The translations under genes were made by a program, and so were the position numbers. A DNA stretch of 52,569 nt, from the NCBI GenBank assembly GCA_018882895.1, contig VERF01000012.1, positions 1 to 52,569 on the forward strand. Direction: 5' to 3'. The notes under the pieces were generated by a model that saw only the letters and a list, made by a program, of their open reading frames with translations, searched no databases and had not been told where the DNA came from. Positions 13,464-40,412 of this stretch are shown piece by piece. Numbering within the stretch: the stretch's first letter is position 1; every line of letters begins with the position of its first letter. The stretch comes from Candidatus Kapaibacterium sp. (lineage in GTDB: Bacteria; Bacteroidota; Ignavibacteria; Kapaibacteriales; Kapaibacteriaceae).

Positions 13464-15302
13464 TCACTCCAAGGAGGCTGCTTCACGTTTCTTCGCACGT
13501 TGGCGCATGGTCGTGTCGAGAATCTTCTTGCGCAGCCGCACCGAAACGGGCGTGCATTCAAGAAGTTCATCGTCTTCGAGAAACTCGATGCACTGCTCAA
13601 GTGACAACTGACGTGGTGCTTCCAGGCGCACAAGTCCGTCGGACCCGCTGGAGCGCATGTTCGTCAGATGCTTCATTCGGCAGGCGTTCACGCTAAGATC
13701 TTCTTCGCGGGCATTTTCACCGATGATCATTCCTTCATACACGGGCTGACCCGGTTCGATGAAGAGAATGCCCCGTTCCTGAACCATTTCCAGTGCGTAG
13801 GCCGTCGACGGGCCCGTTTCCATTGATACGAGGGCGCCGCGCAGACGTCCGGAAATCGCCCCCTTATAGGGCTGATACGAGTCGAAGGTATGGTGGATGA
13901 TGCCCTGACCGCGCGTGGAGGTCAGAAACTCCGTCCTGAATCCAATGAGACCTCGTGCCGGTACGAGAAACTCGCACCGAACGCTGTCGTTGCTCGGCGT
14001 CATGGCGGTCATCTCACCCTTGCGGCGACCTAGACTTTCAATGACGGTTCCTACGTGATCTTGCGGTACATCCACGGTGACGTGTTCGATTGGTTCGAGC
14101 ATGGTGCCACTCTCGTCGCGGCGGAAGAGAACCTCCGGACGCGAAGCAGCAAATTCGTAGCCCTCACGACGCATTGTCTCGATGAGAATTGCCAGCTGGA
14201 GCTCGCCTCTGCCTGACACCTTGAAGACATCCGGCGAATCGGTGTCCTCCACCCGCAGCGAAACGTTGTTGCGTAGCTCCTTGTAGAGCCTCTCACGGAT
14301 CTTCGGCGTGGTAACGAACTTGCCCTCCCGACCGGCAAGGGGCGAGGTGTTGACCATGAAGTACATGGCAATGGTGGGCTCTTCGATGTTCACATACGAC
14401 AGAGGTTCGGTGCGTGAACTGTCGGCGATGGTCTCACCGATGTACACATTCTCAAATCCCGACAGAGCGATGATCTCACCAGCTGTTGCCGTGGTGGTCT
14501 CTGCGCGGGTGATACCCTCGTGCACATACATCTTTGTGATGCGGGCCGACTCACGCGTTCCATCTGGTTTGATGAGGTTGACGTTGTCGCCCACCTTCAC
14601 AGCCCCCTCGATGATGCGTCCAACGGCAATACGTCCTACGTAGTCCGACCAGTCAAGTGCCGAGATGACCATAGCAAATGGCACGTCGACGTCCACCGTC
14701 GGCGGTGGGATGTGCTTGACGATGGCTTCGAAAAGGGGCTCAAGGGAATCTGTCTCGTCGGTAAGATTCATCTTGGCAAGACCCAGCTTCCCAATCGCAT
14801 ACACGATCGGGAAGTCCAGCTGCTCATACGATGCCCCGAGGTTGATGAAGAGTTCCATCACCTCATCGAGCACCTCGGCTGGGCGAGCATCGCCGCGGTC
14901 GATCTTGTTGATCACCACAATGGGCTTGATCCCCATGTCGAGTGCCTTGCGCAGCACGAAGCGTGTCTGCGGAAGCGGGCCTTCGGCCGCATCGACCAGC
15001 AGCAGTACGCCGTCGACCATCGACAACACCCGCTCGACCTCACCGCCGAAGTCGGAGTGACCCGGCGTGTCCACGATGTTGATCTTGATGTCCTTCCAAC
15101 GCACGGCCGCATTCTTGGCCATGATGGTGATGCCGCGTTCGCGCTCGAGGTCATTCGAGTCCATGACTCGCTCGGCTACGACCTGGTTTTCGCGAAACAT
15201 CCCACTTTGCCTCAGCATATGATCGACGAGTGTCGTCTTGCCGTGGTCAACGTGTGCAATGATGGCGATGTTGCGAAAATCCTCTCTTTGCTGAAGAGCC
15301 AT
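13464..15302 (-). CDS. typA: Translational GTPase TypA/BipA
   Basis: 612 residues, close to the usual 607-615. Shows G1 [10 protein letters not shown]2 with RGITI, G3 [12 protein letters not shown]4 NKID, then EF-Tu-like domain 2, two EF-G-like domains and the TypA-specific C-terminus (RLRKKILD near the end). TypA binds the ribosome and supports large-subunit assembly under stress and cold. A GTG at 15332 is possible, but the ATG at 15302 has AGGA 4 bases upstream and matches the family start. A TAnnTTTG box lies 30 bases upstream. It heads the long minus-strand run ending in mgtE. Confidence 0.97.
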
Positions 15303-15331
15303 GTTTCCTGTAGCCGGTTTTTGGATAGCCA

Positions 15332-15339
15332 CAAAGATA
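15332..15339 (-). promoter_or_regulatory. Bacteroidota-type -7 box (TATCTTTG) for the typA operon
   Basis: On the minus strand TATCTTTG matches the TAnnTTTG -7 consensus of the Bacteroidota housekeeping sigma factor. It would start transcription about 20-25 bases before the typA ATG. No clear -33 TTTG is seen. Confidence 0.5.
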
Positions 15340-15353
15340 CGGGAGGATAGGGT

Positions 15354-15465
15354 ACGGATTACGGAGGACGGATTACGGAGGACGGATTACGGAGGACGGA
15401 GGACGGATTACGGATTACGGATTACGGATTACGGATTACGGATTACGGAGGACGGATTACGGATT
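15354..15465. repeat. Heptamer array, 16 units of ACGGATT/ACGGAGG
   Basis: Sixteen perfect head-to-tail 7-bp units, eleven ACGGATT and five ACGGAGG, with no imperfect unit. The last unit ends 3 bases before the ATG at 15469. The same units in reverse complement flank the other side of the gene (15912-16002). Confidence 0.95.
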
Positions 15466-15468
15466 ACG

Positions 15469-15906
15469 ATGTCACGCTTTTGTTGGCTTGCTGCTCATAT
15501 ACATCTACAAATGCACGATCCCGACATCATCTTCACAGATCCTGGTCAGGGTGAACTACAGAAGTTATCTGTACAGTTTGCCCGAGAAGCACGCAGGCTG
15601 GCTCTTATGCTGATCAAACAATCGGCGATCGAAAGATCATCGATTGATCAGCTTTACAGATCCGCAATGTCCGTTGGAGCGAATGTGCGCGAAGCTCAGT
15701 TTGCCGAATCAGCAAAGGACTTCCTTCATAAGCTTAAGGTCGCCGAGAAAGAACTAGCCGAATTTTACTTCTGGCTTGGTGCACTGCACTCTGAACCACA
15801 GCTGATATCGCCAGATCAAAGCGAGACTTCGCAAGAATTGGCTCTCAGGACTAAAAAACTACTGGCTTCAATCATCACTTCAATGAAGCGTAAACTCTCT
15901 TCATGA
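15469..15906 (+). CDS. Four-helix bundle protein (S23/IVP family) inside inverted heptamer arrays
   Basis: 145 residues. The pattern SAMSVGANVREAQFAES, then DFLHKLKVAEKELAEFYFWL, is the hallmark of the S23 four-helix-bundle family, first known from intervening sequences in 23S rRNA genes and related to the Avd accessory protein of diversity-generating retroelements. The biochemical role of free-standing members is unknown, though nucleic-acid binding is likely. The start is chosen at 15469 because the repeat array stops exactly 3 bases before it, as at other genes here; an ATG at 15511 gives a 131-residue protein nearer family length. Neither has a clear ribosome site. Different GC and flanking repeats suggest a mobile cassette. 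Confidence 0.85.
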   Translation: MSRFCWLAAHIHLQMHDPDIIFTDPGQGELQKLSVQFAREARRLALMLIKQSAIERSSIDQLYRSAMSVGANVREAQFAESAKDFLHKLKVAEKELAEFYFWLGALHSEPQLISPDQSETSQELALRTKKLLASIITSMKRKLSS

Positions 15907-15911
15907 AAGGT

Positions 15912-16002
15912 CCTCCGTAATCCGTCCTCCGTAATCCGTCCTCCGTAATCCGTCCTCCGTAATCCGTAATCCGTCCTCCGTAATCCGTAATCCGTCCTCC
16001 GT
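15912..16002. repeat. Heptamer array, 13 units of CCTCCGT/AATCCGT (inverted copy of the upstream array)
   Basis: Thirteen perfect 7-bp units (seven AATCCGT-type alternating with CCTCCGT) that are the reverse complement of the units at 15354-15465. It begins 5 bases after the stop of the four-helix gene and runs into the stop codon of the lipoprotein gene on the other strand. Together the two arrays could pair as a stem of about 90 bp. Confidence 0.95.
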
Positions 16003-16004
16003 AA

Positions 16005-16541
16005 TCAGAAATAATTCGACTCATCTCTCCAGCGCACGATCTTCCAGGGATCGGTTGTGGAGGGGCGTTCGACCAGGAGGTTCACACGGCCCTGGGCGCG
16101 GAGGATGTCGGCCGGGTTGAAGGTGATCGTGAGATTGAATCCGCGGGAGATGTTCTTAGCCAAACTGTCGCCTTCGGCAACTACCACGTCGTTCCAGACA
16201 AGGTCGAGTTGCTGGGCGGCGGTGAACAGGCCGTTGGTGGCCAGCATGTCTTCATCGCGGCCCCACGTGACGTCGATGCCTTGGTCGTAGTTGCGGTACA
16301 CGAACGTGAAGTTGCGCGCCAGAAGGCGGCCGTAGGTTAGCGTATCTCGAAACAGGTACGCGTAGCGAAAGTTCTGAAACAGTCCCTCAATGGTGCGCTG
16401 GTCACCAAGGACGTTATCGCCCCCTGACTCATCAAGAGAGGGGGCGAATGGATTTACGCATGATGTGCCGGCGATGATCAAGCCGCCGAGTAGTGCTGCG
16501 GCGATGGCCGACCACGATCGTGATGTAAGCCGCCGTGTCAT
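16005..16541 (-). CDS. NTF2-like putative lipoprotein
   Basis: 178 residues. The N-terminus has Arg residues, a hydrophobic run and a Cys (GGLIIAGTSC) that may be lipidated, although the box is not ideal. The rest resembles a SnoaL/NTF2-like fold: a helical LFQNFRYAYLFRDTLTYGRLLA segment followed by strands and a last WKIVRWRDE strand. A second protein with the same ending lies at 24281-24880, so this is a small paralogous family. Envelope-located, function unknown. Its stop codon is formed next to the heptamer array. Confidence 0.7.
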   Translation of the reverse strand: MTRRLTSRSWSAIAAALLGGLIIAGTSCVNPFAPSLDESGGDNVLGDQRTIEGLFQNFRYAYLFRDTLTYGRLLARNFTFVYRNYDQGIDVTWGRDEDMLATNGLFTAAQQLDLVWNDVVVAEGDSLAKNISRGFNLTITFNPADILRAQGRVNLLVERPSTTDPWKIVRWRDESNYF

Positions 16542-16874: not shown

Positions 16875-17042
16875 GGTCGTACTCCGAATGTTCATCGTGG
16901 TGGGGACTGCTGCGAAGATAGTCACCGGAACATCAATTCATGAGACGCATATCGGAGTCATCCCCTGACGGGTGTCATCATTTGGCGGGCGTGCAAACGA
17001 GAGTTTCGAACAGTTCATTCACCAACCTGTTTGGAGCTCGTT

Positions 17043-20000
17043 ATGCGACGTCTTGCCCTCGCGCTCTGCTCGCTTTTGATCTTCGCCGCGAACGCACCGG
17101 CGCAGATCTCCATTCCAAGAACATTTACGTATCAAGGCGTCCTGACAACTCCCAATGGAGATGCAGTGCCCAATGGTCCGTATGAGATCACAATCCGACT
17201 TTATGGCCAGCCAAGCGGAGGCAGCGCACTGTGGGAAGAGGTGCATACCGTCTCGACCCTGAACGGAGTGTTCGACATTGTGATGGGGCGAACGGTCCCA
17301 CTTACCCTGACCTTTAATCAAGAGTACTGGCTAGCCGTCGAGGTAGCCACCGAAGGCGAGATGATCCCGCGTACACGTCTAACAGCTGTGCCGTATGCCC
17401 TGTATGCCGATAGGGCACGAGTGGCCGACAGCGTGTCGATCTCCGCCACGGGCGTCGTAAGGAGCATCAATGGGGTCGATGGCGACCTTGTTCTTGAGGG
17501 CCAAGGTGCCACGACGATCGTTCAGACGGGAAAGAAGTTCACGATAAGCACCCCCGAGGCCGTGCAGCGGATCACGTCACTCGACGGATCGATCGTTGTT
17601 CGACTAACCAACGGAAACGATGTTGATATCGCGATCAAGTCGGTCGACCCTTCTCTGATCCAACGAGCCGGCGCCAACAATGGCGAGGCCCTTGTCTGGG
17701 ACGCCACCACATCCTCATGGCGTCCGAAGCTGATCACGGGTAATGTGACCGACGCTCTGAGAAGGGGCGATGCAGCCGGTGGTGATCTCACGGGCACGTA
17801 TCCGGATCCGCTGATTCGCGAGGGTGCCGTGACAACCGAGAAGATCGCTTTGGATGCCGTGACGACATCGCGCATTGCAAATGGCGCGATTACGACGCCG
17901 AAGATCCAAGATGGAGCCGTTTCGACGCTGAAGATCCAGGATGGAGCCATCACCACCGAGAAGGTGCAGGATTTTGCCATCACATCAACAAAGATGTCGC
18001 AGATGCCCCTTACCCCGGGATCATATGGCTCAAACAACTCGGTACCAGTGATAAACGTCGACAAAGCCGGACGCATCACGGCGATCCAGTCGGTGCCCAT
18101 CGATAACACGCAACCCTTCGGTCCGGCAGGCGGCGATCTTGTTGGCGTATACCCCGATCCCGAGCTCCGGGCAACGGGTGTCGTGCCGGGAACATATGGC
18201 AACAGAACATCTGTGCCACAGTTAACGATCGACACGAAGGGACGCATCACGCAAGCACAGAGTTGGCAGATCCGCCCCGAGTCGCTCGAGCAGTCGGACA
18301 TTCTCATGACGGGACCGATCGACAGCCTGAATCTGCAGATCAAGCCTGCCACGATCGGCACGGATGAACTCAAGGATGTGCCCGGCCTGCCGCTGGTGGC
18401 CCAAGGTAATGCTCTAACGTCGGCCGTGATCACGGTCGACCGAGACGGACGCGTGCGCGAACTCTCGTCGATACCCATCCTGGCCATGAGGCCCGGAGAT
18501 CCGGCAGGGGGCGACCTGATGGGGAACTATCCCAACCCGAGGATCAACTTCAACGTTGTTGGCGGTGACATCATCACGGCCATCAATTTGGAGGATTCGC
18601 TTCTGATTGACGGGGCGCGCATTGAGCCCCCTATAACGATACCGGCCTCGGACATTCAGGCCAGCGGACGTCTCGATTCACTGAACCTGCAGATCAAGGC
18701 CGGCACCGTCAACGGAGCCGAGTTGGCCAATCTTCATCCGTCAGCCATCGGTCCGGTTGGCAGCATCTCGCAGATCCCCGTCGTAAGCATTGATGTAGAC
18801 GGCCGAGTGACGGGACTCTCGGCCGTGACGCTCAACGCTATCAAGGTCGGCGACCCGGCAGGGGGCGACCTGACGGGGACGTATCCGAACCCAACGCTCA
18901 ACGTCACCACGTCGGGCAACACGATCATCAATGCCATCAATAACAGCAGTACGACCACGGTGATCGACGCGTCGAAGATCGAGATGCCGGGCACGTTGGC
19001 AGCGTCTGACCTGAGCGTTACAGGGCCGCTCGACTCGATGAATCTTCAGATAAAGGCATCGACTGTGAACTCGAACGAGCTGATGGACCTGCATGCCGCG
19101 CCCATCGGCCCGATTGGTTCAACGTCTACAACCCCGGTCTTAACGATCGATCGGGACGGACGTGTTGTCGCACTCAGTTCGGTAACCATCTCCGGCACCA
19201 CGCCCGGTGGTCCGGCAGGGGGCGACCTGACGGGCACATATCCGAATCCGACCCTGATCAACACGGGTGTCACTTCGGGCACCTATGGCAACACGAGCGC
19301 CGTGCCGCAGATCACTATCGATCCCAAGGGGCGCATCACCAACGTCAACAACGTTGGCATCACCCCGGTCATGGCCGCAGGATCGGATATGACGGTCACC
19401 GGAATCATCAACTCGATGAACCTCCAGCTCAAGAGCAACACCGTTGGTAGTGATGAACTCGCATCCACCACCGTAACGCCATCAACCTATGGAACTGCCA
19501 CACAGGTGCCACAGTTCACGGTCGATGCCGATGGCCGTATCACCAATGCCCAAAACGTCACGATCTCCGGCACCACACCCGGTGGTCCGGCAGGGGGCGA
19601 CCTGACGGGGACGTATCCGAACCCAACGATCAACATCGCTGCGGCCGGCCCCTCCATCATAAACGCCATCAACAACTCCTCATCGATGACCGTCATCGAT
19701 GCCTCAAGGATCGAACATCCCGGAACAGTCACGGCGTCGGACCTGACGGTGACCGGCCACTTGGATTCCATGGACCTGCAGGTAAAGTCCGGACGCATCG
19801 GCTCGGCCGAGCTGGCGGACCTGCACATGGGCTCCATCGGACCCGTTGGTTCGGCGTCGACCGTTCCGGTTGTGACCATTGATGCCGATGGCCGCGTGAC
19901 CGCACTCACCTCGACAACTATCACTGGCACAACGCCGGGAGGAGCCGCAGGGGGCGACCTGACGGGCACGTATCCAAATCCGACACTGGTGACAACCGGC

Positions 20001-22493
20001 GTGGGCGCCGGCAGCTACGGAAACAGCTCACAGGTTGGCCAGTTCACGGTCGACACCAAGGGGCGCCTGACAAGTGCATCGAATGTCACGATCGTTCCGG
20101 TAACGGCGGCCGGCACCGACGTGACGGTATCCGGCAACATCAACACGATGAATATGCAGCTCGGCACCGCAGTGGTTGGCCCCACGGAGCTGGCATCCAC
20201 CAGCGTCTCGAGCGGAACGTATGGATCTGGCACACAAGTGCCTCAGTTCGTCGTCGATGCTGATGGACGTCTGACGAGTGTAACGAATGTTACGATCACG
20301 GGAACAACCCCGGGCGGAGCAGCAGGGGGCGACCTTACGGGTACGTATCCGAATCCATCACTGATCACCACCGGCGTTACAGCAGATCAATACGGAACAC
20401 CTTCTGCCGTGCCGCAGATCACGGTCGACTCAAAGGGCCGAATTCTCGCAGCATCGAACCTGACGATCGTTCCCGAATCTGTCATCGCCTCAGATGTGAT
20501 CGTGGCAGGCAACATCAACACGATGAACCTGCAGCTGGGTACCGGCGTGGTCGGATCACCCGAACTGGCCTCATCCGGCGTGACAGCGGCAACATATGGC
20601 ACCACGACGCAGATCCCGCAGATCACCATTGATAGTGACGGCCGTATCACCAATGCCACCAACGTTACCATCTCTGGCACAACACCGGGAGGTGTAGCCG
20701 GTGGCGACCTTACGGGAACGTATCCGAATCCAACTCTCGTGCTGACCGGTGTGGCAGCCGGTTCCTATGGCAACGATCATCAGGTGGGTTCGTTCGCCGT
20801 TGATGCCAAGGGCCGCCTGACCACGGCTTCAAATGTCACGATCGTGCCTGTGACGGCAGGTGGCTCAGATGTTACCGTGTCCGGCAACATCAACACCATG
20901 AACCTGCAGCTCGGTAGTAGCGTCGTTGGCCCGACAGAGCTTGCATCGACAAGCGTCACGCTGGGCACGTACGGATCGACAACGCAGGTTCCGCAGTTCA
21001 CCGTTGACGCCGACGGGCGACTGACCAGCGCAACGAACGTGACGATCTCCGGTACCACACCGGGCGGAGCGGCAGGGGGCGACCTGACGGGAACATATCC
21101 GAATCCAACATTGATCACCACCGGCGTCAGTGCCGGCACGTATGGCACCTCGAGCGCAGTGCCGCAGTTCAGCGTCGATGCGAAGGGACGTCTGACCTCG
21201 GCCTCGAATGTGACCATCGTGCCGGCCACGGCCGCCGGATCGGATGCCACGGTTTCAGGCAACATCAATACCATGAATCTTCAACTCGCACCGGATGTCG
21301 TAGGATCAAGCGAGCTTGCCTCCACATCTGTCAGTAGCGGTACTTACGGTACGTCTACGCAGGTTGCTCAGTTCACCGTTGATGCCGACGGTCGCATCAC
21401 GAACGCCACCAACGTCACGATCTCCGGTGCTGCACCATCGGGTCCGGCAGGGGGCGATCTTACCGGCACGTATCCGAACCCATCCCTGATCACCACCGGC
21501 GTCGGTGCCGGCACGTATGGCACCACGAGCGCAGTGCCGCAGTTCAGCGTCGATGCGAAGGGACGTTTGACCTCGGCCTCGAACGTGACCATCGTGCCGG
21601 CCACGGCCGCCGGATCGGATGCTACGGTATCGGGCAACATCAATACGATGAACCTGCAGCTTGGGGCTGATGTGGTCGGTTCGGCAGAGCTGGCTGCGAC
21701 AGCCGTCTCCAGCGGCACCTATGGTACGGCAACTCAGGTACCTCAACTAACGGTCGATGCCGACGGCCGTTTGACAAACGTCACAAACGTTACGATCTCC
21801 GGCACCACACCGGGCGGTTCTGCCGGTGGCGATCTATCAGGCACATATCCAAATCCCACAGTGAGTCGCATTCAGGGCCGCACGGTATCAACCCTGGCTC
21901 CGGCATCGGGCAATGTTCTTACGTGGAACAGCACCTCGAGCTCATGGGAACCGGTCGCGCCATCTTCGTCGAGCTCGCCGACAGGCGCTGCCGGAGGCGA
22001 CCTGAAGGGCACATATCCGAATCCAACGGTGCAGAAGATCCAGAATAAGCTCATCGACTCGAGCATGACCCTGTCGAATCAGGATGTGCTGACGTGGAAC
22101 GACACGACGCAGAAGTGGACCAATACCAAGAAGGGCGAACTCCCGACGGGCGTGTATCTGCGAGAGGGTACTGTGATCGACGTCGGACTGACGCAGACGC
22201 CTGTTGGTGAGTTGAACAACCTCGTCATTCCAGAGGCCGGTCTGATCCGATTCGTCAACTCAACCGTTCAGACCGATGTGACCGGCTTTGCCGGCGGCTC
22301 TGATGGTCGACTTCTGATCGTGTTCAACGGCTCCGGTAAGCAATTGAAGTTCTTCAGCAATGATGGACGTTCAACCACGGCGAACCAGCTTGAGCTGTTC
22401 ATTGCCAGCCGGACGATCAACACGAATGGTCTGATCATGTTCGTGTATATCGCCTCGCTGCAGCGCTGGGTAGAGATCACCCACAATAACTGA
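17043..22493 (+). CDS. Giant secreted repeat protein with 13 AGGDLTGTYPNP motifs
   Basis: About 1816 residues with a signal peptide (LALALCSLLIFAANAPAQ). An N-terminal domain of about 110 residues (ISIPRTFTYQGVLT through RTRLTAVPYALYA) is the kind found at the start of many FCB-group secreted or tail-fibre-like proteins. Then come 13 copies of AGGDLxGxYPNP, spaced about 120 residues, each followed by blocks with VPQxTVDxxGRIT and NTMNLQL. The C-terminal 110 residues (from PTGVYLREGTV) form a distinct beta-rich cap. The plan suggests a long surface fibre or adhesin; no sorting signal is obvious. The ATG at 17043 has GGAG 6 bases upstream. It leads a three-gene operon. Neighbouring units are up to about 95 percent identical in DNA, so copy number may vary. 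Confidence 0.88.
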   Translation: MRRLALALCSLLIFAANAPAQISIPRTFTYQGVLTTPNGDAVPNGPYEITIRLYGQPSGGSALWEEVHTVSTLNGVFDIVMGRTVPLTLTFNQEYWLAVEVATEGEMIPRTRLTAVPYALYADRARVADSVSISATGVVRSINGVDGDLVLEGQGATTIVQTGKKFTISTPEAVQRITSLDGSIVVRLTNGNDVDIAIKSVDPSLIQRAGANNGEALVWDATTSSWRPKLITGNVTDALRRGDAAGGDLTGTYPDPLIREGAVTTEKIALDAVTTSRIANGAITTPKIQDGAVSTLKIQDGAITTEKVQDFAITSTKMSQMPLTPGSYGSNNSVPVINVDKAGRITAIQSVPIDNTQPFGPAGGDLVGVYPDPELRATGVVPGTYGNRTSVPQLTIDTKGRITQAQSWQIRPESLEQSDILMTGPIDSLNLQIKPATIGTDELKDVPGLPLVAQGNALTSAVITVDRDGRVRELSSIPILAMRPGDPAGGDLMGNYPNPRINFNVVGGDIITAINLEDSLLIDGARIEPPITIPASDIQASGRLDSLNLQIKAGTVNGAELANLHPSAIGPVGSISQIPVVSIDVDGRVTGLSAVTLNAIKVGDPAGGDLTGTYPNPTLNVTTSGNTIINAINNSSTTTVIDASKIEMPGTLAASDLSVTGPLDSMNLQIKASTVNSNELMDLHAAPIGPIGSTSTTPVLTIDRDGRVVALSSVTISGTTPGGPAGGDLTGTYPNPTLINTGVTSGTYGNTSAVPQITIDPKGRITNVNNVGITPVMAAGSDMTVTGIINSMNLQLKSNTVGSDELASTTVTPSTYGTATQVPQFTVDADGRITNAQNVTISGTTPGGPAGGDLTGTYPNPTINIAAAGPSIINAINNSSSMTVIDASRIEHPGTVTASDLTVTGHLDSMDLQVKSGRIGSAELADLHMGSIGPVGSASTVPVVTIDADGRVTALTSTTITGTTPGGAAGGDLTGTYPNPTLVTTGVGAGSYGNSSQVGQFTVDTKGRLTSASNVTIVPVTAAGTDVTVSGNINTMNMQLGTAVVGPTELASTSVSSGTYGSGTQVPQFVVDADGRLTSVTNVTITGTTPGGAAGGDLTGTYPNPSLITTGVTADQYGTPSAVPQITVDSKGRILAASNLTIVPESVIASDVIVAGNINTMNLQLGTGVVGSPELASSGVTAATYGTTTQIPQITIDSDGRITNATNVTISGTTPGGVAGGDLTGTYPNPTLVLTGVAAGSYGNDHQVGSFAVDAKGRLTTASNVTIVPVTAGGSDVTVSGNINTMNLQLGSSVVGPTELASTSVTLGTYGSTTQVPQFTVDADGRLTSATNVTISGTTPGGAAGGDLTGTYPNPTLITTGVSAGTYGTSSAVPQFSVDAKGRLTSASNVTIVPATAAGSDATVSGNINTMNLQLAPDVVGSSELASTSVSSGTYGTSTQVAQFTVDADGRITNATNVTISGAAPSGPAGGDLTGTYPNPSLITTGVGAGTYGTTSAVPQFSVDAKGRLTSASNVTIVPATAAGSDATVSGNINTMNLQLGADVVGSAELAATAVSSGTYGTATQVPQLTVDADGRLTNVTNVTISGTTPGGSAGGDLSGTYPNPTVSRIQGRTVSTLAPASGNVLTWNSTSSSWEPVAPSSSSSPTGAAGGDLKGTYPNPTVQKIQNKLIDSSMTLSNQDVLTWNDTTQKWTNTKKGELPTGVYLREGTVIDVGLTQTPVGELNNLVIPEAGLIRFVNSTVQTDVTGFAGGSDGRLLIVFNGSGKQLKFFSNDGRSTTANQLELFIASRTINTNGLIMFVYIASLQRWVEITHNN

Positions 22494-36160: not shown

Positions 36161-36195
36161 GACGAGTGACGAGTGACAAGTGACGAGAGACGAGT
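36161..36195. repeat. Heptamer array, 5 units of GACGAGT type
   Basis: Five 7-bp units (GACGAGT, GACGAGT, GACAAGT, GACGAGA, GACGAGT), 35 bp in all, beginning 3 bases after the preceding stop. The reverse complement is the basis of the long array at 39968-40079. Confidence 0.9.
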
Positions 36196-36230
36196 AATTT
36201 TGTAATTCCGTAATTACGTAATCATTAATT
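36195..36230. repeat. Octamer-like repeats TAATTnnG
   Basis: TAAT recurs at 36195, 36203, 36211 and 36219 with an 8-base step (TAATTTTG, TAATTCCG, TAATTACG), ending 7 bases before the DUF1569 start. Shorter and less perfect than the heptamer arrays. Confidence 0.65.
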
Positions 36231-36237
36231 GCCTCCC

Positions 36238-36696
36238 ATGCCCCTTCCTGATATCTGGTCCGACGCCTGCGTAACCGAACTCCATCGGCGCATTGATTCA
36301 CTGACTCCATCAACGCAGCCCAAGTGGGGCACAATGAATGTGGCTCAAATGCTGGGGCATTGCTGCATGCCGTATGCACAAGCACTTGGGGACGACACCC
36401 AGAAGTCTGCGTGGTACATCCGATTGGTGCTACAACTCTTTTTCAAGAAGAGCATGACCAATGAGGTGCCGTATAAGCCAAGTATGCCCACCAACCCGGC
36501 CTTCATTATGCCGGCAGATAGCGAGTTCGAACCGAACCGCGATCGGTTGAAGGCTTACATCCGTCGCTTTGCCGATCAGGGTCGTGCCTCATTTGAAGGA
36601 CGCAATCAGCTTTCACTTGGGAAGCTCTCAGCCACCGAATGGAACAATCTGATGTATAAGCATCTAGATCACCACCTCAGACAGTTTGGGGAGTGA
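36238..36696 (+). CDS. DUF1569 (DinB-like) protein
   Basis: 152 residues. PKWGTMNVAQMLGHCCMPY with its His and the late MYKHLDHHLRQFGE match the DUF1569 branch of the DinB-like four-helix metalloprotein fold, whose His residues bind a metal. Function unknown. The ATG at 36238 is preferred to a TTG at 36229. It lies inside the outer pair of inverted heptamer arrays, and a separate AGGTTAC array starts 3 bases after its stop. Confidence 0.82.
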   Translation: MPLPDIWSDACVTELHRRIDSLTPSTQPKWGTMNVAQMLGHCCMPYAQALGDDTQKSAWYIRLVLQLFFKKSMTNEVPYKPSMPTNPAFIMPADSEFEPNRDRLKAYIRRFADQGRASFEGRNQLSLGKLSATEWNNLMYKHLDHHLRQFGE

Positions 36697-36699
36697 GAC

Positions 36700-36725
36700 A
36701 GGTTACAGGTTACAGGTTACAGGTG
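36700..36725. repeat. Heptamer array, 3 units of AGGTTAC
   Basis: Three perfect AGGTTAC units plus a partial one, beginning exactly 3 bases after the DUF1569 stop codon. I did not find an inverted partner array in the window. Confidence 0.85.
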
Positions 36726-36748
36726 TTTCCACGTAGCGGCGCGGCGAT

Positions 36749-36853
36749 GTAGGGGCGAGACGCAGTCTCGCCCGTAAGCCGATGGGGCGCATGGATTCCC
36801 GCTTTCGCGGGAATGACGGAAGCAAACAGGCGAGACATGCGTCTCGCCCCTAC
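36749..36853. repeat. Composite REP-like element with 15-bp inverted ends
   Basis: The ends GTAGGGGCGAGACGC (36749-36763) and GCGTCTCGCCCCTAC (36839-36853) are perfect inverted repeats. Inside are three hairpins: 36753-36773, 36795-36814 (ATTCCCGC/GCGGGAAT, a string common in intergenic repeats of many bacteria) and 36829-36848. A 105-bp non-coding element, probably a small non-autonomous repeat. Confidence 0.8.
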
Positions 36854-36867
36854 CGTTGTAATTGTCC

Positions 36868-36902
36868 AAAACCCAAAACCCAAAACCTAAAACCTAAAAC
36901 CC
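36868..36902. repeat. Heptamer array, 5 units of AAAACCC/AAAACCT, 3 bases from the gcvP stop
   Basis: Units are AAAACCC, AAAACCC, AAAACCT, AAAACCT, AAAACCC, 35 bp in all. The stop codon of gcvP (minus strand) starts 3 bases away. The inverted array of equal length lies 3 bases before the gcvP start. Confidence 0.9.
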
Positions 36903-36905
36903 GCC

Positions 36906-39764
36906 TCAGGCATATTCCTCAATCGACGGGCACGTGCAGATCAGCACGCGGTCTCCATGGGCGTTGTCGACGCGGCCGATGGATGGCCAGAACTTCCGGT
37001 CGCGCACCCAAGGGAGGGGGAAGGCCGCGGTCTGACGTGAGTACGCGTGCTCCCATGTGTCTGCCGTGACAACGAACATGGTGTGCGGTGCGTTCTTGAG
37101 CGGGTTGTCCTTGGCATCAATCGTGCCGGTGCAGACATTCTCAATTTCGGTACGGATCGACAGAAGCATCTCAATGAACCGGTCGAGCTCGGCCTTGCTT
37201 TCGCTCTCCGTCGGCTCGATCATGATGGTGCCGGCAACGGGGAAGCTGAGCGTTGGTGCGTGATATCCGTAGTCCATCATACGCTTGGCCACATCTTCGG
37301 CTTCGATGCCCCCTCGCTGCTTGAACTCACGCAGGTCCACGATCATCTCGTGAGCGCAGCGTCCGTTGGTGCCGGTGTAAAGGATCGAGTAGTGACCTTC
37401 GATGCGGCTCTTGATGTAGTTCGCATTCAGGATCGCGCGCTTGGTGGCGTTGGTAAGCCCCTCGGAGCCCATCATGCGGATGTATGCCCACGAGATGAGG
37501 AGGATCGATGCTGAGCCCCATGGAGCGGCCGATACCGGACCGACATTGCTCACGTCGATCGGGTTGATGACCGGATGCGATGGCAGGTAGGGGGCGAGCT
37601 CTGCTGTGCAGCAGATCGGACCCATTCCCGGACCGCCCCCTCCGTGAGGGATGCAGAACGTCTTGTGCAGGTTCAGGTGACACACGTCAGCGCCGATGGC
37701 ACGCGGAGATGTCAGCCCCACCTGTGCATTCATGTTCGCGCCGTCCATGTAAACGCGTCCACCATGCTCGTGTACGATGGCGCAGATGTCCTTGATGGCT
37801 TCTTCAAACACGCCGTGGGTTGACGGGTAGGTGACCATCAGGGCGGCAAGGTTTGCCGAGTGTGCTTCGGCCTGGGCCTTGAGGTCGGCCACGTCCACGT
37901 GACCGTGTGCATCGCTCTTGACCACGACAACCTTCATGCCGGCCATGACGGCTGAGGCGGGGTTGGTACCGTGAGCCGACGAAGGGATGAGCACCACGTT
38001 GCGGTGCTGCTCGCCCCGTGCATGATGGAAGCCACGAATGGCCAACAGTCCGGCATACTCACCCTGGGCTCCGGCATTGGGCTGAAGGGAGCAGGCGTCA
38101 AAGCCAGTGATCTCGTTCAGCCACGTGCTGAGCTCGGAGAAGATCCGCTGATAGCCTTGCGTCTGCGACGTTGGCGCAAACGGATGCACGCGGTTGAAGG
38201 CCGGCCACGTGATGGGGATCATCTCGGCTGTGGCATTGAGCTTCATCGTGCACGAGCCGAGGGAGATCATCGAATGCGTCAGTGACAGGTCCTTGTTCTC
38301 CAGACGCTTCATGTAACGAAGCATCTCGTGCTCAGTGTGGTAGCTGTTGAACACCGGATGCGTCAGGTACGTCGACGTGCGAACGAGCCCCGCCGGCAGA
38401 CCGCTCGGGGCGGTCGCAATCAGGTCGTGAACCGACGGAGCACTAGCCCCCTTGGCAGCGGCAAACACATTCAGCAGAGCCTGCACATCGGCAACCGTAG
38501 TTGTCTCGTCCAGCGAGACGCCAACGCACGTGCCGTTGGGGAAGTAGCGAAGATTGATGGCAAGGGGCTCGGCAGCGCCACGCACGGCCGCTTGATCGGC
38601 GTTGATGCAGAGCGTGTCGAAGAAGGCTTCCGGACAGAGCGTGTAGCCCATGGCCTTCACGCCGGCGGCCAGCGCCGATGTGAGCGTGTGCACGCGGTTG
38701 GCGATGCCACGCACGCCATCGGGTCCGTGATAGACGCCATACATGGCCGACACGTTGGCCAGCAAGGCCTGGGCGGTGCAGATGTTGGATGTTGCCTTAT
38801 CACGACGAATATGCTGCTCGCGGGTCTGCAGTGCCATGCGCAGAGCAAGGTTACCTTGGGCATCGACGCTGACGCCGATGATGCGTCCGGGCATGATGCG
38901 CTTATAGGCCTCACGCGTTGCCATGAAGGCTGCATGCGGTCCACCATATCCAAGCGGTACTCCAAATCGCTGCGCCGAACCAACGGCCACATCGGCTCCG
39001 AACTCACCCGGCGGGACCAGGTGCGTCAGCGCCAACAGGTCCGTACCAACGGTCACCAAAGCGCCCCCTGCATGAGCACGCTCGCAGAACTCTCGATAGT
39101 CGCGTACCTCTCCGTCTCCGGCAGGGTACTGCACGTAGGCGCCGAAGATCGACCCGTCGAACTGCGCCGACTTCCAATCTCCAACCACAATGTTGATGTT
39201 CAGCGGAAGCGCACGCGTGCGGATCACCTCGAGCGTCTGCGGAAAAACATTTGAATCAACGAAGAACGTTTCGGCATTCTTGGCCGCTCCAGTGCGAGCC
39301 GCATAGACCATGTGCATGGCCTCGGCAGCCGCCGTGGCCTCGTCCAGCAGAGATGCGCCGGCAATGTCCATCTTCGTCAGATCCGTGACGATCGTCTGGA
39401 AGTTCAGTAGACTCTCGAGTCGACCCTGAGCGATCTCGGCCTGGTACGGCGTGTATTGCGTGTACCATCCCGGATTCTCGATCAGGTTCCGCAGGATCAC
39501 CGGCGGCGTCACGGTGTCGTAATAGCCCATGCCGATGTACGACTTCGCCGGCGTGTTCATTGCGGCAATGCCCTGCAGCTCGGCAAGCATCTCGATCTCC
39601 GTCAACGGTGACGGTAGGTCAAGGGGCCTTTCAAGCCGGATCTTGGCCGGCACAGTCTGCTCAACAAGCTGGTCAATGCTCGACGCATCAACAGCCGCAA
39701 GCATGGCCTGAATGTCGGCGTGGGAAAGTCCGTGATGGCGGTGTTCGAAGATGTCAGAATGCAT
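36906..39764 (-). CDS. gcvP: Glycine dehydrogenase (decarboxylating), P protein, single chain
   Basis: 952 residues, the full-length homodimeric form rather than the split GcvPA/GcvPB pair. The PLP-binding Lys lies in [21 protein letters not shown]; the N-terminal half has the typical [36 protein letters not shown]. It decarboxylates glycine and passes the aminomethyl group to lipoyl-GcvH. No gcvH or gcvT is in the window. There is no Shine-Dalgarno sequence: the 35 bases before the 3-base spacer are a heptamer array. The whole coding region is framed by inverted arrays. Confidence 0.96.
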
Positions 39765-39767
39765 GTC

Positions 39768-39802
39768 GGGTTTTGGGTTTTAGGTGCTGGGTTTTGGGTT
39801 GA
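39768..39802. repeat. Heptamer array, 5 units of GGGTTTT type, 3 bases from the gcvP start
   Basis: Units are GGGTTTT, GGGTTTT, AGGTGCT, GGGTTTT, GGGTTGA. It is the inverted counterpart of 36868-36902 and has the same length. On the G-rich strand four GGG runs could form a quadruplex. Confidence 0.88.
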
Positions 39803-39805
39803 AAA

Positions 39806-39863
39806 CGTCGTCCTGGCGCAAGCGGGGACCGATTCCGTCGTCCTGGCGCAAGCGGGGACCGAT
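39806..39863. repeat. Two 28-bp direct repeats
   Basis: Two identical 28-bp copies, starting at 39806 and 39836 (30-base step), share the core CCTGGCGCAAGCGGGGACC. No open frame. It looks like an intergenic dispersed repeat doubled in tandem. Confidence 0.85.
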
Positions 39864-39952: not shown

Positions 39953-39967
39953 AAGGACGATCCGTCT

Positions 39968-40079
39968 CTCGTCTCTGGTCTCTCGTCACTCGTCACTCGT
40001 CACTTGTCACTTGTCACTCGTCACTCGTCACTTGTCACTCGTCACTCGTCACTTGTCACTCGTCACTCGTCACTCGTCA
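39968..40079. repeat. Heptamer array, 16 units of CTCGTCA type
   Basis: Sixteen uninterrupted 7-bp units, mostly CTCGTCA with CTTGTCA, CTCGTCT and CTGGTCT variants. The last unit supplies the stop codon of the heavy-metal-binding protein gene (40077-40079), and a partial unit reaches into its last two codons. Same family, inverted, as 36161-36195. Confidence 0.92.
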
Positions 40080-40412
40080 CTCGTGCGTCTTGTCGCGATA
40101 CCGGCAGCAGTCGGGGAGCTTGCTGTAGGCTTCGTCGTTGCCTTTGACGTTTTCGACGTCGTAGCCGGCATCGGCAATGACCTTCTTGATCGCTTCGGGT
40201 TTGGTCTTTGCGTCATCATAGACGGCGGTAAAGACCTTGGTCTTCTTGTCCCATGCTGCGTCCTTGACGCCGTCGATCGACTCTGCGGCTTTGACGATGC
40301 GCTTCTTGCAGGAGCCGCAGTTGCCGGAGACGTTCAGCGTGACCTTTTGCTCGGCAGCGAAGGCAAGAGCAGGGAGGATGAGCAGGGAAAGAACAAGCGT
40401 GCTGAAACGCAT
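40077..40412 (-). CDS. Secreted heavy-metal-associated (HMA) domain protein
   Basis: 111 residues: signal peptide (STLVLSLLILPALAFAA), then an HMA fold with the metal-binding GNCGSCKKRI (CxxC) and the usual VKDAAWDKKTKVFTAVYDD and IKKVIADAGYDVENVK elements. Probably a periplasmic Cu(I) or Hg(II) binding protein like MerP or a CopZ exported to the periplasm. A -7 box TATATTTG lies about 57 bases upstream. The C-terminus (CCRYRDKTHE) adds two Cys, and its last codons are made of heptamer repeat, so the end may be altered. Confidence 0.87.
   Translation of the reverse strand: MRFSTLVLSLLILPALAFAAEQKVTLNVSGNCGSCKKRIVKAAESIDGVKDAAWDKKTKVFTAVYDDAKTKPEAIKKVIADAGYDVENVKGNDEAYSKLPDCCRYRDKTHE

Follow-up and report, generated by a model that had tools for sequence, protein, structure and literature searches.

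A lone S23/IVP gene enclosed by inverted arrays of 7-nt repeats, probably one copy of a widespread mobile cassette

In a 52,569-nt stretch of DNA from Candidatus Kapaibacterium sp. (hereafter the window), we identified a lone S23/IVP gene lying between inverted arms of 7-nt repeats. This feature is probably one copy of a widespread mobile cassette, in which a pentamer of the S23 protein would bind the repeats and the bound ends would be joined into a new target. The cassette is a relative, outside rRNA, of the S23-encoding intervening sequence (IVS) of 23S rRNA. At the level of sequence, we could demonstrate the association of gene and arms in six phyla, arms of mostly five units outside the window's genus, presence and absence of the cassette at the same locus, and the loss of 10–328 bp of the target.

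The whole cassette occupies positions 15354..16006 of the forward strand. It is located between typA/bipA (13464–15332, reverse strand, with a match to TIGR01394) and, on the far side from typA, a small ORF (16005–16541, reverse strand). The left arm (15354..15468, forward) starts with 16 contiguous exact heptamers at 15354–15465, each ACGGATT or ACGGAGG, which are followed by ACG and by the first ATG of the S23/IVP gene (15469..15906, forward). Five bases after the TGA stop at 15904–15906 come 13 contiguous exact reverse-complement units, CCTCCGT or AATCCGT, at 15912–16002, and with its partial units the right arm spans 15910..16006 on the reverse strand. The initial annotation had reported 16 and 13 units and no degenerate ones, and our exact count agrees (0 degenerate units in either arm); its suggestion that the arrays are young or actively maintained fits. 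It had also given distances of 3 bases to the ATG and 5 bases after the stop. Both are right if the gene starts at 15469, but the relatives of the protein align from the ATG at 15511, which is probably the true start codon, and the gap to the left arm is therefore about 42 bp. The inverted arrays, described there as perfect, are so unit by unit, but they do not make one long palindrome. The best ungapped match between the arms is 92 % over 97 bp, and since each arm arranges the two unit variants in an order of its own, the arms are not exact mirror copies and were probably lengthened separately.

Tandem Repeats Finder placed the two arrays at 15353–15468 and 15910–16006. In a run test they appeared at period 7 and its double 14, with none at periods 3–6, 8–13 or 15, and given this exclusivity they are not due to chance. 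In 10 typA loci of the genus, the flanking DNA of the sister genomes resumes at 16007, right outside the right arm, and on the left side conserved sister DNA resumes at or before 15341. Replacement of the target at the window site was seen roughly, against one diverged sister.

Elsewhere in the window, Tandem Repeats Finder found a few arrays of other periods, namely 12, 15–45 and 375. An ORF of 1820 residues (17031–22493) has internal 375-bp repeats at 20798–21864. Two different heptamer units, at 36161–36195 and 36698–36724, flank a small ORF (36229–36696) and are not inverted copies of each other. Arrays of CCAAAAC and GGGTTTT, at 36866–36902 and 39768–39800, face outward around the long ORF 36906–39764, presumably encoding the glycine dehydrogenase GcvP. 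We also noticed REP-like hairpins with GGCGAGAC/GTCTCGCC and CCCGCTTTCGCGGG stems between two heptamer arrays (36725–36865), and two copies of a 30-mer (39806–39863) beside a 122-bp heptamer array (39963–40084).

The S23/IVP assignment made from the letters alone was confirmed by matches to PF05635 (E 4.6e-12, 46.5 bits against a curated cut-off of 33.8) and TIGR02436 (E 2.8e-16, 59.7 bits against a curated cut-off of 24). No Pfam domain other than S23 was found in the protein, and in particular no transposase domain. The predicted structure is a four-helix bundle (pLDDT 91) whose matches at E 0.001 or better were five chains of PDB 2rld, the best match, and the next matches were chains A–E of 2gsc. 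The S23p of X. campestris is a homopentamer ring according to the available sections of PMC4990558, and by analogy with its solved relatives 2rld and 2gsc the protein of the window presumably forms a pentameric ring as well.

To follow the layout across genomes, we searched a collection of 84,980 species with an alignment of seven S23 proteins and kept the best 80 of at least 561 relatives. The seeds were mostly armed (five inverted, two one-sided), and the 80-locus set therefore stands for their subfamily. An array was called where a period-7 run lay within 300 bp of the S23 gene. Such arrays were present on the left side in 48 loci, on the right in 50 and on both sides in 38, and in 37 they were inverted and matching. 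The corresponding numbers for period 8 were 2, 2, 1 and 1, period 6 gave one array on the left, and periods 5 and 9–12 gave none. Among 461 control ORFs in the same DNA, 31 had an array on the left and 29 on the right, but only one was enclosed by inverted arrays, and among ORFs under 200 residues none of 190 was. The enrichment (37/80 vs 1/461) has a Fisher p of 1e-33, and clustering at 60 % identity with unarmed members preferred left 8/24 vs 1/461 (p 9e-11). The clustering, like the test of heptamer relatedness given below, excludes six loci whose translations were short. Four of the 80 genes are less than 150 bp away from the end of their contig, and arms that could not be seen for this reason were scored as misses. 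The self-match at lag 7 beside S23 genes was 0.40 and 0.39 vs 0.29 in control flanks, other lags being flat except multiples of 7, and it still reached 0.35 and 0.37 vs 0.29 in the 20 S23 loci for which no array was called.

The 37 enclosed loci belong to Bacteroidota (24), Cyanobacteriota (6), Bacillota (4), Chlamydiota (1), Armatimonadota (1) and Elusimicrobiota (1); the inverted-heptamer layout is not local but recurrent across six phyla. Where heptamer arrays are as frequent as in the genome of the window, with 25 of them in 254,635 sampled bases, one might suspect that slippage had produced such an expansion by chance beside an ordinary gene. However, S23 genes of six phyla show the layout again, with heptamers that differ, a period of 7 and inversion on both sides, and the two enrichments just given rule such an expansion out, leaving it practically no probability. 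Using the same seeds, a search of the class returned 30 loci, 11 with inverted arrays (two of them from the genus itself), 7 with arrays on one side and 12 with none. From plasmids, 10 of 17 matching records were examined: seven had arrays on both sides, two on one side and one on neither, and six were found by reading to be inverted. In two cyanobacterial loci, L091 and L112, we noticed that the same AATTACG array recurs many times around S23, for the most part in a single orientation, within a gene cluster that also encodes a helicase and a DNA methyltransferase.

Not all S23 genes behave in this way. The initial annotation had proposed to compare S23 genes with random genes for flanking heptamers, and the expected excess exists in the searched subfamily, but among canonical S23 genes (the top Pfam matches of the phylum, 23 of type A and 6 untyped) 0/29 had inverted arms and 2/29 had one-sided ones. 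The two types are defined by motifs which split S23 into the canonical type A and a type B, with one change between them on a FastTree tree for the 137 motif-fitting rows; the other 20 of the 157 sequences in the tree match neither motif and were excluded from the type count. The tree was built without the genus loci L037–L039, the class loci L262, L273 and L282, and rows with in-frame stops. Most arms belong to type B, and the armed copies of type A are three in the window's genus plus the Calothrix plasmid gene L356, typed by eye. The 157-sequence tree requires 33 or more changes of the armed state; arms have therefore often been gained, lost or decayed below the threshold.

The arms themselves are of a rather uniform build. 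Across the 37 enclosed loci, none of which is from the window's genus, five units make up the arm in 52/74 cases and four units in 10/74, and this is no effect of the cut-off because arms of three units would pass the threshold. A core of 4–5 nt repeats at a pitch of 7 nt with spacer bases that vary, a pattern more suggestive of binding sites set in a row than of fresh slippage. There is an overlap between the right arm and the stop codon or gene end in 17/37 loci, and in 9/37 no gap separates the left arm from the start codon that our script picked. The position of the left arm would suit sites of autoregulation, where the S23 ring binds five repeats of its own mRNA and mobility is incidental. 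Five units next to a five-chain protein also suit it, and there is a precedent in TRAP, a ring of 11 subunits with 11 triplets (abstract of PMC4027176). Autoregulation, however, leaves unexplained both the inverted arm at the 3′ end and the presence and absence of the whole unit with edges at both arms, and we consider it improbable as the purpose of the arms.

Evidence for a mobile cassette, as the initial annotation had proposed it to be, comes from cyanobacterial plasmids, in which we found five cassette sites with matching loci that lack the respective cassette; two of the sites have such a partner in the same strain. On plasmid A of Nostoc C052 (L097), a 422-bp cassette with its arms at the edges replaces 188 bp that are seen in two other plasmids of that strain, D and B, and in a C057 plasmid. 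A DNA cytosine methyltransferase gene has given up 328 bp to the cassette in L090 and L093; as L360 and L361 have the replaced part within an open gene that is annotated as such, the cassette must be the newcomer. Measured against plasmid 1 from that strain and two others, plasmid 2 of Aulosira (L094) has exchanged 25 bp for its cassette. In L095 and L096, the cassette lies between cas2 and cas1, with 61–75 bp replaced and extra array copies inside. The S23 gene is on the opposite strand within these regions (L095 2512–4603, L096 2593–4349), cas2 and cas1 are adjacent in two plasmids without the gene, and the right arms are weak, being 31-bp runs just inside the edge that were recognised by eye and then at a lower threshold. 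Finally, the Calothrix locus L356 carries a different S23 gene with GGGTGTA arms in a 518-bp cassette that replaces 10–11 bp, at a point within the L094 gene block that differs from the L094 insertion point.

At all five sites the point where homology stops and the outer end of the arm are no more than about 7 nt apart, with the exception of the right side of L353, L357 and L359, where homology resumes later. In these plasmids, a combination of an S23 gene with inverted heptamer arms is shown by sequence comparison to be a mobile cassette; mobility of the copy in the window would follow by extension. The left junction of L090 has one host CAATTCG identical to the arm unit CAATTCG, and at the L097 junction the host shares AATT only. 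We searched the 37 enclosed loci for target site duplications and detected none: the longest direct match outside the arms was 4.14 vs 4.10 in shuffled sequences, with 213/500 shuffles as high. Inverted matches outside the arms of these loci did not exceed the shuffles either.

The loss of target sequence also bears on whether the feature could act at the level of RNA. In that case the arms would fold in the transcript and RNase III would remove the loop, the insertion being tolerated as in 23S rRNA. The predicted fold of the 665-nt cassette does pair the two arms with each other, and the Coxiella IVS combines S23p, inverted ends, excision by RNase III and heptamers. However, the 328 bp of methyltransferase gene missing in L090 and L093 could not be restored by excision. 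Moreover, the window gave no Rfam match at the gathering score, the cassette lies outside an rRNA gene, and tRNA or rRNA context around 20 unarmed S23 loci amounted to one tRNA in all. An RNA-level intervening sequence is thus an unlikely account of the window feature, and we return to the mobile cassette.

Arrays are not confined to the cassette. Gene-less arrays are common in the genome of the window, in cyanobacteria and in Prevotellaceae, and 83 arrays more than 600 bp from S23 were found in the 840,763 bp of the 80-locus DNA. They come from 34/80 loci, with 41 arrays in Bacteroidota, 29 in Cyanobacteriota, 12 in Bacillota and 1 in Fibrobacterota, and several repeat the unit of the neighbouring S23 arms. 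Five Prevotellaceae genomes with CATTGA arms have 22 to 116 overlapping pattern hits, with 0 for the reversed control, and in three Prevotellaceae loci arms of 31–32 bp around a 16-nt loop form tight gene-less pairs. The initial annotation had held that arrays without the gene would end the cassette idea. They do occur and limit it, but the idea still stands because the paired loci with and without the cassette have their edges at the arms.

Gene-less arrays would also fit a different view, in which the host has microsatellites or hairpins independently of S23 and the S23 gene merely lands in them, so that the arms are its target. This would agree with the lack of covariation between the heptamer sequence and the relatedness of the S23 proteins (Mantel test on 42 non-redundant loci, 304/2000 permutations as high), and also with sister genomes that carry gene-less inverted arrays at the same typA site. 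However, at the usual threshold no period-7 array is present in 11/12 comparison loci of the plasmids, and the only ones in the remaining locus, L356, are the two arms that belong to its own S23 cassette at another point of the block. In the class, 20 sampled genomes with S23 yielded 1 array in 649,029 bp, yet 18/30 class S23 loci have an array within about 300 bp. The arms are also stereotyped at five units. Landing in pre-existing host repeats seems rather unlikely to us on these grounds, and we prefer arms that travel with the cassette. A relation between the presence of S23 and the genome-wide density of arrays in the class was rejected, since the 18 genomes without S23 had 0 arrays in 286,443 bp against the single array in those with it.

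The genus of the window was inspected more closely. The window's own genome has seven S23 genes, and in 6/7 of these loci period-7 arrays of several heptamers lie within 1.5 kb, inverted on both sides in three. A Pfam search, which is independent of the arms, found S23 in 6/11 genomes of the genus. The 28 S23 loci of the genus (L037–L039 not entered) are enclosed by inverted arrays in 10 cases, flanked on one side in 6 and without arrays in 12. In a sample of partial DNA, genomes with S23 had 37 arrays in 507 kb and those without it 0 in 305 kb, but a simple link was rejected after whole-genome searches: pattern hits are present in 6/6 genomes with S23 and in 1/5 without, the exception being G008, with no S23 found and 77 hits (12 with the reversed-pattern control). 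G001, which has S23, gave just 8 hits vs 3 in the reversed control. On the typA tree of the genus, the contrast comes down to three independent changes of S23, of which two point the same way and one is a tie; with sampled as with corrected states p is 0.5, which is not significant.

The typA site of the sister genomes shows how variable the units are. G009 has inverted AGGTTTC arms around 113 bp, with no S23 gene between them. G002 (L103 3290–3690) has, by eye, a heptamer array and an apparent octamer array (GTAATTCA/GTAATTCC) around a hairpin, and G008 has a short intergenic region without arrays. With one arm of heptamers and the other of octamers, the G002 site displays an apparent change of unit length. 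As the units at this site vary among sisters, their turnover is faster than the divergence of the S23 lineages, which is in line with the missing covariation of heptamer and lineage. This turnover is the main difficulty for a simple element with fixed ends, and it would fit recognition of the spacing rather than of the sequence.

How could such a cassette move? We propose that each subunit of the S23 pentamer ring recognises a single repeat core on one DNA strand; read from its 5′ end, either strand starts with the same sequence. The ring-bound ends might then be joined into a broken or single-stranded target via short matches, with cutting and synthesis left to host enzymes. Pairs of arms without the gene would most simply be non-autonomous or decayed copies, and in the genus of the window the arms would have been lengthened and spread. 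Binding of five repeats by the pentamer and its part in mobility are what we infer from these features, and the protein may count its own end repeats, five repeats corresponding to five subunits. It is also possible, if somewhat doubtful, that the cassette represents a general class of elements that replace their target and whose ends are set by number and spacing, with five 7-nt repeats per arm, one per ring subunit on one strand. The heptamer microsatellites of cyanobacteria and Prevotellaceae, and perhaps those of Xanthomonas and Beggiatoaceae, would then be its non-autonomous remains, and the IVS of 23S rRNA would be copies whose position lets RNase III render them harmless.

Two long-standing puzzles, the S23/IVP proteins and the heptanucleotide arrays, were kept apart in the literature we surveyed and are here tied together. 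The link gives S23/IVP, so far a protein without an assigned function, a concrete DNA partner, suggests where many bacterial 7-bp repeats are likely to come from and makes the intervening sequences of rRNA part of a larger class. If five repeats do match five subunits, the end of the element would be recognised by counting, and replacement of the target without duplication points to a route of mobility other than that of a classic transposase.

Several known systems share part of this layout. REP/REPIN sequences with RAYT, and MITEs, combine a gene and inverted end repeats with gene-less pairs in the same genomes. The cassette is similar in its inverted ends and gene-less pairs, but differs in having no Pfam transposase domain and no detected target duplication, and its ends are 7-mers set by their number, with a sequence that varies from locus to locus. 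With insertion sequences and MITEs it shares the presence and absence with edges at inverted ends (five cyanobacterial plasmid sites) and lacks the target site duplication (37 loci). The Avd protein of diversity-generating retroelements has the same fold as S23 (4dwl, and 8ub7, a DGR ribonucleoprotein); both structures were among our matches at E 0.035 and above, beside other helical proteins. A reverse transcriptase as the partner of S23 was rejected, as PF00078 had 0 matches in the window's own genome, the same profile being positive in 3/14 control genomes. The ring of TRAP, by analogy, suggests that an S23 ring might work with a subunit number equal to the number of repeats.

The heptanucleotide arrays of cyanobacteria are known under the name STRR. 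Like the arms of the cassette, STRR, the TAACTGA repeats of Beggiatoaceae (PMC4679880) and the GGGAATC repeats of Xanthomonas (PMC4692102) are intergenic 7-bp arrays, as far as the available sections describe them. According to those of PMC4692102, the Xanthomonas repeats form 70 and 75 convergent pairs in two genomes, the Nostoc repeat GGGGA(T/C)T has few inverted pairs and no plasmid copies, and the repeats are without a general tie to mobile elements. The terms "S23" and "four helix" are absent from the main texts of both papers.

The closest relative is the IVS of 23S rRNA. Among the matches listed in our search of the open-access literature, none ties S23 to heptamer arrays in general, and an S23-encoding IVS is never presented as a general class outside rRNA. 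The initial annotation knew of no described class with this layout, which was nearly right, but the S23-encoding IVS comes close, and that of Coxiella burnetii even has heptamers before its start codon. In the available sections of PMC4990558, this IVS has inverted ends, replaces a tetraloop and is excised by RNase III; three or two GACAGAT heptamers and a degenerate one precede the S23p start codon and are treated as strain variation, and S23p itself is probably not made in vivo and expendable. The IVS lies in rRNA and is removed by RNase III, whereas the window cassette lies outside rRNA, and the Coxiella heptamers are reported there on one side only, whereas the cassette has arms on both. 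As far as these sections go, the two nevertheless share a lone S23 ORF, inverted ends that form a stem, replacement of a piece of the target and a sporadic distribution, and the Coxiella heptamers, whose number varies between strains, have their counterpart in the heptamer arms of the cassette.
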